64,000 bases of DNA from Klebsiella pneumoniae (GTDB lineage Bacteria; Myxococcota_A; UBA796; SXON01). Positions within the stretch are counted from its first letter, which is position 1; each line of letters begins with the position of its first letter. The stretch covers positions 1 through 64,000 of the forward strand of contig CAMAXZ010000019.1 in NCBI GenBank assembly GCA_945862325.1, written 5' to 3'. The notes below the pieces were generated by a model. It was not told where the DNA came from, did not search any database, and saw only the letters and a program-made list of their open reading frames with translations. Made by a program: the position numbers and the translations under genes. Shown here piece after piece: positions 5,645 to 10,434 of this stretch.

Positions 5645-6598
5645 GTGGCCTGCACGGACTGCCCCCGGGCCTGCGCGGCGCGAGGGCCCGGGAGCATCTG
5701 CGGGGTTGACACGTCTCGCGTGTATTGGCGCGGTGTCACCGTGCTCGAAGAGACGGAGATCGCCCCGACCTACGAGATCTACCTGACAGGCTGCTCCCTC
5801 CGGTGCCGGTTCTGCACCGTGCCGCGCGCGATCGAGCGGCCGCACGAGGGGGAGGCGATCACCCCCGAGGACCTCGCCGCGGCGGTCGCCGACCCACGAC
5901 ACCCCTGCTTCCGGACGGTGTCGTTCGTCGGCGGCGATCCTGCGGTGAACCTGCCGTATCTCACCAAGCTGGCGCCCTTGCTCCGGGCCCGGCTGCCCGG
6001 GGTCCCCATCGTGTTCAACACGAACCTCTACTGGGGGCCCTCCGTGGCCGCGTGGGCGCGCGCGCACGTCGACGTGGTCGTCGGGGACGTGCACTTCTGG
6101 GCGACGGACTGCGCTCGGGCGGTGGCCGGAGCCGCCGACTACCCGGCGGTCGCGGTCCGGTCGGCGGAGGCGGCCGCAGCGTCGGGGCTCCGGCTCCTCC
6201 TGCGCGTCCTCGTGCTGCCGGGTCACGTCGGGTGTTGCGCGGCCCCGACGATCGCGTGGGCCCGGACGCTCGAGGGCGACGTGCGCGTGCACGTCATGAC
6301 GCACTACGCGCCCGTCGGCCGGGCCCGTGGGCACCCGACGCTCGGCCGCGCGCTCGACCCGGTCGAGCAGGCCCAGGTCGCGTCGCTGTGCGCCGGCCTC
6401 TCCGCCCCGCCCATCGGCGCCGGCGCGGGGTCCGCGGGCGAGGACCCGGACGTCCCCGTGGAGATCGACGGCGAAGGCCGACTGTTCTTCCCGTTCGTGA
6501 CGGGCTCCGTGCTGCCGGCGCTCGAGGGGTATCGGTCGGTTAGCCCTGCGTCATGCCCGCCGATCTCGAGCTGCTCATCCGCGCGCGGTACCCGCTGA
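5645..6598 (+). CDS. Radical SAM protein related to pyruvate formate-lyase activating enzyme
   Basis: A radical SAM enzyme of 317 residues. The SAM-coordinating 4Fe-4S motif is CSLRCRFC (Cys50, Cys54, Cys57). The N-terminal CTDCPRACAARGPGSICG holds four more cysteines and matches the 'C..CPR.C......G.C' start of a PflA-related subfamily of unknown substrate. SFVGGDPAVNLPYL matches the GGEP region of radical SAM proteins with Asp instead of Glu. The gene starts with GTG directly behind the pirin stop. Its last 46 bases overlap the AAA ATPase gene in another frame; the tail (after about residue 300) looks like low-value read-through, so either the C-terminus is genuinely long or a small frameshift removed an earlier stop. 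Confidence 0.85.
   Translation: MACTDCPRACAARGPGSICGVDTSRVYWRGVTVLEETEIAPTYEIYLTGCSLRCRFCTVPRAIERPHEGEAITPEDLAAAVADPRHPCFRTVSFVGGDPAVNLPYLTKLAPLLRARLPGVPIVFNTNLYWGPSVAAWARAHVDVVVGDVHFWATDCARAVAGAADYPAVAVRSAEAAAASGLRLLLRVLVLPGHVGCCAAPTIAWARTLEGDVRVHVMTHYAPVGRARGHPTLGRALDPVEQAQVASLCAGLSAPPIGAGAGSAGEDPDVPVEIDGEGRLFFPFVTGSVLPALEGYRSVSPASCPPISSCSSARGTR
6540..6546 (+). promoter_or_regulatory. -10-like TTAGCC box before Ycf46-type gene
   Basis: TTAGCC ends 7 bases before the ATG at 6553. The same hexamer stands 6 bases before slyD (24302) and 8 bases before moaD (20990). It suggests that the cluster starting at 6553 has its own promoter and a near-leaderless message. Confidence 0.35.
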
Positions 6599-8025
6599 TC
6601 TGGCTGCGCACCCTCGAAGAGGACCGCGCCGTCGACCTGATCTGCCGCGCGGCCCGAGCGCTGGGGGACGCCGCGACCGGCTGGTCGCAGGTGCACGGCC
6701 TTCACGACGTCCCCGGGCCCGCCAGCTCCGGCGCGCAGTCGGATCCCCTGGGTGCGCTCGCCCACATCCGTGGTCAGAAGCGGCGCACCATCTGGATCCT
6801 CAAAGACCTGCCGGCGCTGTGCGCCGGTGGCAACCCCGCCCTCGTGCGGGCGATCAAGGACGCGGCGCTGCACTGCAAGACGGTGGGCGCCGTGCTCGTG
6901 GCGGTCGGCCCGGGCGACCTTCCGCCGACGCTCGAGGGGGTGGCGGCGGTCCACGACCTCGCGCTCCCAGAGGTCGCCGAGCACATGGCGCTGTTGCAGC
7001 GCGTCGCGCGCCAGCTCGCCCTGCCGGTGCCGGACGCGGTGGCGCGGGCCCTCTCGCACGCGTGCCTCGGGCTCACGCTCGAGCAGGCCGAGAACATCTG
7101 GGCCCGCGTGCGCGTGTCTGGCGGCAAGTTCACCGCCGCCGACGTCCAGATCGTGCTCGAGGAGAAGGCCCGCATCGTACGGAGCTCCGGCTTCCTCGAG
7201 GTCGTGTCGTCGGTCCCGATGGAGCACGTCGGGGGGCTCGACACCCTGAAACAATGGGTCATGCGTCGCGGGCGCGGGTTCTCCGAAGAGGCGAGACGTA
7301 TCGGGTTGCCCTTCCCGCGCGGCGCCCTGCTCGTCGGCGTTCAGGGCTGCGGGAAGTCGCTCGTCGCGCGCGGGATCGCCGGCCAGTGGGGGCAGCCCCT
7401 GCTGCGCATGGACGTCGGCGCCCTGATGGAGGGCCTCGTCGGCGCCTCGGAGACCAACCTCCGCCGGGCGATCCGCCTCGCGGAGCGAATCGCCCCCTGC
7501 GTGTTGTGGGTGGACGAGATCGAGAAGGCGTTCGGGGCCACCAACGGCGCTACCGACGGGGGCACCAGCCTGCGCATGCTCGGCACGCTCCTGACATGGC
7601 TCCAAGAGAAGACCCAGCCCGTGTTCGTGCTCGCCACGGCCAACAACATCGACGCGCTCCCGCCGGAGCTGCTGCGCAAGGGGCGCTTCGACGAGATCTT
7701 CTTCGTCGACCTCCCCGAGCCGGCCCAGCGGCGCGACATCTGGCGGGTGCACCTTGGCCAACGCGCCCGTGCGTCCGACGATCCGGGGCTCCTCGACCGG
7801 GTCGACGTGGGCGCGCTCGCCGAGCTCTCGGACGGGTACTCCGGCGCGGAGATCGCCGCCGCCGTCGTCGAGGGCGCGTTCTGCGCGCTCGCCGACGGAG
7901 CGCCGCCGGACGGCCGCCACTTCGCCGAGGCCCTTCGGGCGTCGCCTCCTCTGTCGAAGCTCCGGGCCGAGTCGATCGACGCGCTGCGCGCCTGGGCCGA
8001 GGGCCGCGCACGAAAGGCGGGTTGA
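6553..8025 (+). CDS. Ycf46-type AAA+ ATPase
   Basis: A 490-residue AAA+ ATPase that matches the Ycf46/Slr0374 family rather than FtsH: the N-terminus ADLELLIRARYPLIWLRTLEEDRA is the family's typical opening, followed by a roughly 200-residue non-canonical domain. The AAA module starts at 'MEHVGGLDTLKQW' (about residue 225). Walker A is GVQGCGKS (about 260-267), Walker B CVLWVDEIEKAF (about 316-327), and the second region of homology ATANNIDALPPELLRKGRFDEIFFVDLP contains the arginine finger, so it should hydrolyse ATP. The role of this family is unknown; in cyanobacteria and plastids it has been linked to carbon use. It heads a tight unit with a Ycf35-like and a DUF2997 protein, families that also travel together in cyanobacteria. 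Confidence 0.88.
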   Translation: MPADLELLIRARYPLIWLRTLEEDRAVDLICRAARALGDAATGWSQVHGLHDVPGPASSGAQSDPLGALAHIRGQKRRTIWILKDLPALCAGGNPALVRAIKDAALHCKTVGAVLVAVGPGDLPPTLEGVAAVHDLALPEVAEHMALLQRVARQLALPVPDAVARALSHACLGLTLEQAENIWARVRVSGGKFTAADVQIVLEEKARIVRSSGFLEVVSSVPMEHVGGLDTLKQWVMRRGRGFSEEARRIGLPFPRGALLVGVQGCGKSLVARGIAGQWGQPLLRMDVGALMEGLVGASETNLRRAIRLAERIAPCVLWVDEIEKAFGATNGATDGGTSLRMLGTLLTWLQEKTQPVFVLATANNIDALPPELLRKGRFDEIFFVDLPEPAQRRDIWRVHLGQRARASDDPGLLDRVDVGALAELSDGYSGAEIAAAVVEGAFCALADGAPPDGRHFAEALRASPPLSKLRAESIDALRAWAEGRARKAG

Positions 8026-9539: not shown

Positions 9540-9540
9540 C

Positions 9541-10434
9541 GTGCGTTGCGTCGCGTGTCACGAGCCGAACATGCCCGGGCTCACCCGGTGCTTCGCGTGC
9601 GGGCGCCCGTTGGCGGCCGCGGAGTCGCCGATCGCGGCGCCGCGTGTGCGGGCGGCGAACCCGTTCGCGCGCGCCGCCCCGGCGTCGACGCGGCCCACGC
9701 AGCCCCTCCGGTACACCGGCCCGGCGGTGGTCGCGGCGGCGCTCGGCGGGCTCGTGCCCGGCGCGTCTGCCCTCGTCCGGCGGGACCGGGCGTGGGGGTG
9801 GGCGTGCCTCGCGGCCTTCGGAGCGGGTTGGGCCGGGGTGTTCCTCGCGTGGGAGCGCCCGGCGGTGCTGGCGTTCGCCTGGGCCCTCGTGTTCGGGGCG
9901 ATCGCGGCGTCGACGGCGCGTGAGGTGGTGGCGCGGCTCGGGGCCCGCCCACGGGCGGTCCTGGTGGCGGCCACGCTCGGCCTCGCGGCCGTCATCGCCT
10001 GGAACACAGCCTTCGAGGTCGTGACGAACCTCGCCGTGGCGCCGATCGCGGTCGCCCGCGCCGAACGGCTCTCCGCTGGGCGGTACCTCACCACCCCGGT
10101 CGTCGCGCCCACCCCGGACACCCTCGTCGCCGCGCGGGCCGACGCCGGCCGCACCGAGTGGGTCGTCGCGCCCGTCCTGGCGACGGCACGGCAGCAGATC
10201 GAGCTCTTCGACGGGCGGGTGTACGTCGACGGCGCGCCGACGCCCGTGACGCCGCTCGTCGGCGCGGTGATCCCGCCGTTCGACCCGTTCGTCGTGCCCG
10301 ACGACCACGTGGTCCTGTACGCGGCGCCGTTGCGCCCCTTGCCCGTCGGCGCGATCCGCGGTCGAATCCACTACCGCCTCTCCCCCGTCGACGCGCGCGG
10401 GCCCGTCACCTGGCCCCCGGATCCCACCCGATGA
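9541..10434 (+). CDS. Zinc-ribbon membrane protein with signal-peptidase-like C-terminal region
   Basis: The 297-residue protein begins with a zinc ribbon, CVACHEPNMPGLTRCFACGR (two CxxC pairs, residues 3-22). Hydrophobic stretches follow at about 60-75, 85-105, 107-125 and 138-160, indicating up to four membrane helices. The C-terminal 110 residues contain QIELFDGRVYVDGAPTPV and then PFVVPDDHVVLYAAP...VGAIRGRIHYRLSP, which resembles the extracytoplasmic part of type I signal peptidases ('VP.gh.fvlGDN...G.V....I.Gr..'). No Ser-Lys dyad is evident, so peptidase activity is unlikely. It closes the Ycf46-type cluster and overlaps pilT by ATGA. The fold suggestion is weak; a structure prediction would test it. 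Confidence 0.75.
   Translation: MRCVACHEPNMPGLTRCFACGRPLAAAESPIAAPRVRAANPFARAAPASTRPTQPLRYTGPAVVAAALGGLVPGASALVRRDRAWGWACLAAFGAGWAGVFLAWERPAVLAFAWALVFGAIAASTAREVVARLGARPRAVLVAATLGLAAVIAWNTAFEVVTNLAVAPIAVARAERLSAGRYLTTPVVAPTPDTLVAARADAGRTEWVVAPVLATARQQIELFDGRVYVDGAPTPVTPLVGAVIPPFDPFVVPDDHVVLYAAPLRPLPVGAIRGRIHYRLSPVDARGPVTWPPDPTR

Follow-up and report, generated by a model that had tools for sequence, protein, structure and literature searches.

A seven-gene module joining a Ycf46-type AAA+ ATPase to its own PilT and a predicted inactive signal peptidase in non-photosynthetic bacteria

The first 64,000 nucleotides of contig CAMAXZ010000019.1 (assembly GCA_945862325.1, GTDB Myxococcota_A; hereafter, the window), from a genome of 4.9 Mb in 112 contigs that is ~90% complete, contain a unit of seven genes encoding a radical S-adenosylmethionine (radical-SAM) protein, a Ycf46-type AAA+ ATPase, a DUF1257 protein, a tetratricopeptide repeat (TPR) protein, a DUF2997 protein, a zinc-ribbon membrane protein, and a PilT-family ATPase (Table 1). 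These seven genes form a conserved, co-inherited set across distantly related non-photosynthetic bacteria. The original prediction had recognized the five central genes as one tight operon; all five are real, and four gave Pfam matches above the curated cut-offs, but the unit also holds two flanking genes: upstream, the radical-SAM gene, which shares 46 bp with the 5′ end of the AAA gene, and, downstream, pilT. From the AAA gene to pilT, the successive intergenic distances are +0, +3, −4, +1, and −4 bp, within a densely coding stretch.

Loci that were reached through DUF2997 matches in relatives revealed an identical gene order in three genomes (G002, G031, and G047; loci L011, L010, and L009), whose AAA proteins are 64 to 67% identical to that of the window. 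In genome G242 (L145), the genes are arranged likewise, with an AAA that is less closely related. When the genome collection was scanned with an AAA alignment, the module content was recovered, among the matches listed (the total may be higher), in Phycisphaerae (L045 and L047, as well as L052 and L117, both broken by contig ends), a planctomycete (L062), metagenome-assembled genomes (MAGs) of Chloroflexota (L046) and Riflebacteria (L071), and two other bacteria (L060 and L061). The radical-SAM gene is shifted or absent in some of these modules, with none detected in L046, L061, or L071, and the TPR and zinc-ribbon genes are swapped in the Planctomycetota. The content is alike in at least 12 genomes of several phyla, with AAA identities to the window that range from 67% to far less. 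A single origin of the AAA proteins from the PilT-containing modules was not rejected (p-AU 0.46, approximately unbiased test); the window clade lies on a long branch. Some of the families are weak when taken singly (DUF1257 at 24.5 bits and the zinc ribbon below threshold), as would be the case if unrelated genes merely happened to be adjacent, but the shared content over several phyla, the overlapping genes, and the single PilT clade described below oppose that explanation, which is refuted by the conserved synteny and to which we assign practically no weight. The photosynthetic reaction-centre families PF00124 and PF00223 were not found in 11 module genomes, using a search for which a Synechococcus control was positive, and the AAA-DUF1257-DUF2997 trio is uninterrupted in 29/30 of the canonical loci in the phylum of the window genome. 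Both results agree with the earlier proposal of a self-standing machine that is not tied to photosynthesis.

The module PilT retains its characteristic motifs (GPTGVGKT, DPDIVCIGE, and AARAMIR) and, like the PilT/PilU retraction ATPases, matches TIGR01420 over its full length and above the cut-off. In a maximum-likelihood tree, the 12 module PilTs formed one clade against 48 PilT paralogues of the same genomes (support 100/98), and for this reason we regard the protein as dedicated to the module. The operon had been described as lying next to pilT; the adjacency is real, but the gene is a part of the unit rather than a mere neighbor. The module PilT further differs from known PilT/PilU proteins in being encoded within a Ycf46 operon and not a pil operon. 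All 11 of the module genomes tested also encode PilB and further PilTs. In the window genome, a single open reading frame at another locus (L148, G000:C15:65400-68200) encodes two tandem PilT domains, and the module PilT clade has its nearest paralogue in the second of them.

The zinc-ribbon membrane protein proved to be more than its predicted description. Two CxxC pairs do occur within the first 20 residues, although the ribbon by itself is sub-threshold (DZR, 12.7 versus 27.3 bits), and the C-terminal half, aligned from eight modules, exhibits a signal-peptidase-I pattern (PGD...RGDLV.Y...RV.A.PGD.V...G.L.VNG.P...I.GRV.YR..P). The family profile matched SpsB (E 1.3e-11), SipA (E 2.4e-8), and other S26 structures, and six of the eight members matched Pfam S26 singly (best E 6.7e-9); the window protein alone gave no match to Pfam S26, being too diverged. 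The column equivalent to the catalytic Lys contains A, D, D, D, G, D, G, and E in the eight members, and no Ser was found at the nucleophile-equivalent position of the aligned family. With the Ser-Lys dyad lost, the protein is not a signal peptidase, and at the family level it ends in what sequence comparison identifies as a catalytically dead S26 fold. Streptococcus pyogenes SipA (PDB 4n31) likewise adopts the signal-peptidase-I fold without the dyad (Asp and Gly), is encoded with pilus-related genes, and is essential for pilus polymerization (PMC4049620). We view SipA as a precedent by analogy for a dead S26 protein in pilus assembly and claim no homology past the fold; the module protein differs in having a zinc ribbon and several helices ahead of the domain, in its setting of PilT and AAA, and in a sequence link that exists at the family-profile level only.

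The AAA protein possesses intact Walker A (GVQGCGKS), Walker B (WVDE), sensor (ATAN), and arginine-region (KGRFD) motifs, and aligns over its full length, including the conserved N-terminal region, with the AAA proteins of other trios, features that identify it as a Ycf46-type AAA+ ATPase. It is 46% identical to the AAA of a canonical trio (L008). In an AAA tree constructed without plastid Ycf46, the cyanobacterial L093 and L120 proteins were placed apart, one of them on a long branch. The anti-phage ATPase IetA was considered as an identity for this protein and rejected, as the match (64 versus 510 bits; NCBIfam/PADLOC) reflects generic AAA similarity only. Profile searches matched both small-protein families above their cut-offs. 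As had been predicted, the DUF1257 match is confined to the C-terminal part (residues 118-160, profile positions 60-102); relatives scored 30.6 (L009), 24.4 (L010), and 21.9 bits (L011, just below the 22.2 cut-off). Its N-terminus is Ala-rich and hydrophobic, lacks MSHFTxV, and is of the same class across the PilT and radical-SAM modules. Without a whole DUF1257 domain and the MSHFTxV start, this is a diverged DUF1257-class protein and not Ycf35 proper. The single conserved Cys that had been noticed in the DUF2997 protein is invariant, occurring as GxxC in 92/92 homologues.

Co-occurrence of these families extends well beyond the contig: DUF1257 is found in 76/379 and DUF2997 in 79/379 genomes of the phylum, in nearly the same genomes and at adjacent positions. 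The canonical trio of the phylum shares with the module the same three families and the location of DUF1257 after AAA, but its DUF1257 protein starts with MSHFTxV, and no tagged TPR protein, PilT, or dead peptidase lies alongside. Sets of AAA with DUF1257 and/or DUF2997 plus a radical-SAM protein are common in Bacillota, Actinomycetota, and Gastranaerophilales (80 named loci listed), and the trio is also present in Hodarchaeota. DUF1257 and DUF2997 are carried by phage contigs (L168-L173, IMG/VR) and a prophage-like stretch of genome G122 (L147:6924-7558), most of which encode, close by, a remote Ycf46-like AAA (best match L173:5314-6810, E 1.5e-78) and a small hairpin protein. A second DUF2997 locus of G031 (L013:400-5068) encodes a DUF1257 protein, an NrdG-like radical-SAM protein, and a 1123-residue protein weakly like NO VEIN/sacsin. 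A defense or conflict system with patchy, modular, phage-borne relatives could be suggested by the trio on phage contigs, the patchy occurrence within the family of the window genome, and the coupling of DUF1257, DUF2997, and radical-SAM genes with the large NO VEIN-like protein. The window module, however, encodes no effector or nuclease, the PADLOC matches are restricted to the generic similarity to IetA, far under family level, and the PilT modules have been passed on whole rather than being rapidly reshuffled; we consider a defensive role very improbable.

The radical-SAM protein contains an N-terminal Cys cluster (CxxCxxxC...C) and a core CxxxCxxC motif, and its gene occupies the same position in L009, L010, L011, L045, and L062; that of the L060 module is of a short, NrdG-like type. 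The window protein ends in a β-hairpin domain (VEIDGEGRLFFPFVTG) that resembles separate genes of 55 and 87 residues in L047 and L062 (hidden Markov model E 0.002 and 0.12, Z=10000), and in L045 the hairpin is fused to the radical-SAM protein. The link to the separate genes is suggestive rather than firm. Another small hairpin gene lies between two tandem AAA genes, the first diverged, at L061:3-3164. In cyanobacteria, the DUF2997-ycf35 pair sits with a ferredoxin (DUF2997-ycf35-fed7, “cluster g”; PMC4284462), and the original prediction had the TPR protein replacing it; instead, it is the radical-SAM protein that takes the Fe-S place next to the trio, here and in many other operons, and the TPR protein is an additional component. 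An Fe-S protein alongside the DUF2997/DUF1257 pair is therefore a recurring theme. The cyanobacterial genes share these two families and, with Ycf46 (Slr0374), the same AAA type, but the window module differs in having the AAA inside the operon, a radical-SAM Fe-S partner, the additional TPR, dead S26, and PilT proteins, and no association with photosynthesis.

These features also fit a device for protein export or peptide maturation unrelated to pili, in which the radical-SAM enzyme would modify the DUF2997 or hairpin protein, which would be handled by the AAA and PilT-like motors and guided at the membrane by the dead peptidase. The radical-SAM gene adjoins genes for small, conserved proteins in which a Cys is invariant, the hairpin is fused to the radical-SAM protein in certain genomes but encoded separately elsewhere, the operon is devoid of a pilin, and radical-SAM, AAA, DUF1257, and DUF2997 sets without PilT occur in Bacillota and Actinomycetota. 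On the other hand, the known role of other PilT-family ATPases with intact motifs is to retract pili, the module includes no exporter, protease, or leader-peptide gene, and DUF2997 is conserved from end to end, as a precursor peptide would not be. We regard export or maturation as a doubtful, though genuine, contender.

The TPR proteins of the modules start with RFxx(L/I), as in SRFDHI of the window and MSGRFANLEF of L045, and the same N-terminal tag was observed beside the AAA on other bodies, namely zinc ribbons (L054 and L146) and SNF2-type helicases with an RFEWLE tag (L067:14103-16124 from Chloroflexota and L093:1741-3591 from a cyanobacterial MAG). Among the genes at distance 1-2 from an AAA, 22/269 encode RFxx[LIV] within the first residues compared to 2/656 elsewhere (odds ratio 29, p 1.3e-10, a nominal value given that the loci are not independent). 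The unrelated bodies under the tag argue against simple inheritance, and the natural reading of the sequences is that RFxx(L/I) is the peptide through which these proteins dock onto the AAA or its adaptors. All tagged partners observed accompany non-MSHF DUF1257 proteins, but the flanks were long enough for a verdict at only a few MSHF loci, and a strict either/or relationship between the MSHF start and a tagged partner is no more than a lead. The wide variation among tagged partners (TPR, zinc ribbon, and SNF2 helicase) points to an engine of general use whose adaptors can be swapped, and along with the occurrence of the trio in archaea and phages it is consistent with a machine for general protein quality control or cofactor loading (a role that the set may also have in cyanobacteria) to which PilT was added by co-option as another motor, without any function in pili. 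Loss of Slr0374 in Synechocystis lowered the activity of the carbonic anhydrase EcaB, as that result is cited in PMC7496141, which would also suit such a machine. This explanation, which we judge unlikely, does not account for the pairing of a distinct PilT clade with a dead signal peptidase in the complete PilT modules.

The reading that we tentatively prefer, as plausible but short of probable, is that the module encodes a co-inherited, membrane-anchored AAA+ remodeler that works with its own PilT on the type IV pilus or on pilus-like exported substrates. In its favor are the module content shared across phyla, the single PilT clade, PilB and additional PilTs in every module genome tested, the dead S26 fold with SipA as its precedent, the enrichment of the tag, and the undamaged motifs of the AAA and PilT proteins. 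The products would form a physical complex in which the Ycf46-type AAA ring acts as the unfolding or remodeling engine, with DUF1257 and DUF2997 as its small adaptor pair and the hydrophobic N-terminus holding DUF1257 at the membrane. The TPR protein would dock by its N-terminal tag and bring in partners. Outside the membrane, in the topology we envisage, the dead signal-peptidase cleft of the zinc-ribbon protein may grip a pilin-like segment, as is thought for SipA, while the dedicated PilT hexamer provides the extraction force. The radical-SAM protein would modify or redox-activate a component, for which the invariant Cys of DUF2997 is the first candidate. A more far-reaching version, which we think rather doubtful, is that a general, tag-reading Ycf46-type AAA+ engine was built into a pilus-linked machine of an undescribed class that, through its coupling to a private PilT and the dead signal peptidase, pulls out or remodels pilus subunits, with the radical-SAM protein as activator, and that plastid ycf46 and ycf35 are descendants of this engine.

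Several observations weigh against a pilus-linked remodeler. No pilin, PilB, or PilC gene occurs inside the module, and related trios exist without PilT. DUF2997 was found in only 2/22 genomes of the window genome's own family, indicating that the module is dispensable for pili. The presence of type IV pili was rejected as support for a pilus role; PilT above the cut-off was found in 21/23 trio-only genomes of the phylum (excluding G242, a module bearer), showing that these pili are common anyway and that genome co-occurrence is weak, non-discriminating evidence. SipA serves sortase-built and not type IV pili. The predicted structure of the membrane protein was poor (pLDDT 58, with SipA first in a PDB search at E 0.66), and the S26 assignment consequently draws on sequence profiles. 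For the predicted DUF1257 structure (pLDDT 74), no PDB match was obtained at E<=0.001.

The families themselves are known, and public family data already imply that the trio exists outside photosynthesis. The literature searched (DUF2997/radical SAM, PilT/radical SAM/AAA/zinc ribbon, and Ycf46/pili), in which subscription papers were thinly covered, yielded no description of the module; relative to that literature, the seven-gene PilT variant is new, as are the PilT clade private to it, its dead signal peptidase, and the tag. Ycf46, Ycf35, and DUF2997 have long been unexplained, partly because they were studied mainly in photosynthetic organisms. A compact non-photosynthetic module that includes a well-understood motor family and a partner with a structural precedent in pilus assembly offers concrete, testable hypotheses, such that a puzzle of photosynthetic genomes can be approached as a possible pilus-linked machine. 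The RFxx(L/I) tag likewise provides a handle for spotting AAA clients or adaptors in any genome, including those of cyanobacteria.

Table 1. Genes of the seven-gene unit in the window, with profile scores given against their cut-offs
Feature	Position	Strand	Evidence
Radical-SAM protein, 317 aa, GTG start (later start possible)	5645..6598	+	Pfam Radical_SAM 52.2 vs cut-off 29.5 bits
Ycf46-type AAA+ ATPase, 490 aa	6553..8025	+	Pfam AAA 101 bits; AAA_lid_3 32.3 vs 27.2
DUF1257 (Ycf35) protein, diverged class	8026..8526	+	Pfam 24.5 vs 22.2 bits
TPR protein, N-terminal (S)RFDHI tag	8530..9300	+	Pfam TPR_19 82.8 vs 25
DUF2997 protein, 80 aa, GxxC Cys	9297..9539	+	Pfam 36.9 vs 24.1 bits, profile positions 1-47
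Zinc ribbon, membrane helices, and predicted catalytically dead signal-peptidase-I (S26) domain	9541..10434	+	family-level profile
PilT-family ATPase	10431..11486	+	TIGR01420 402.5 vs 319.1 bits

Upstream of the unit, a pirin gene (4652-5644) abuts the radical-SAM gene and is itself abutted by a K+ channel gene; neither was found within the modules of relatives. The unit is terminated by a convergent protein-kinase gene (11493-13343). Elsewhere in the window (24906-28361), a protein of 1151 residues combines numerous MopE-type metal-binding motifs with one lamin-tail and one Ig-like domain and is probably a large surface protein.

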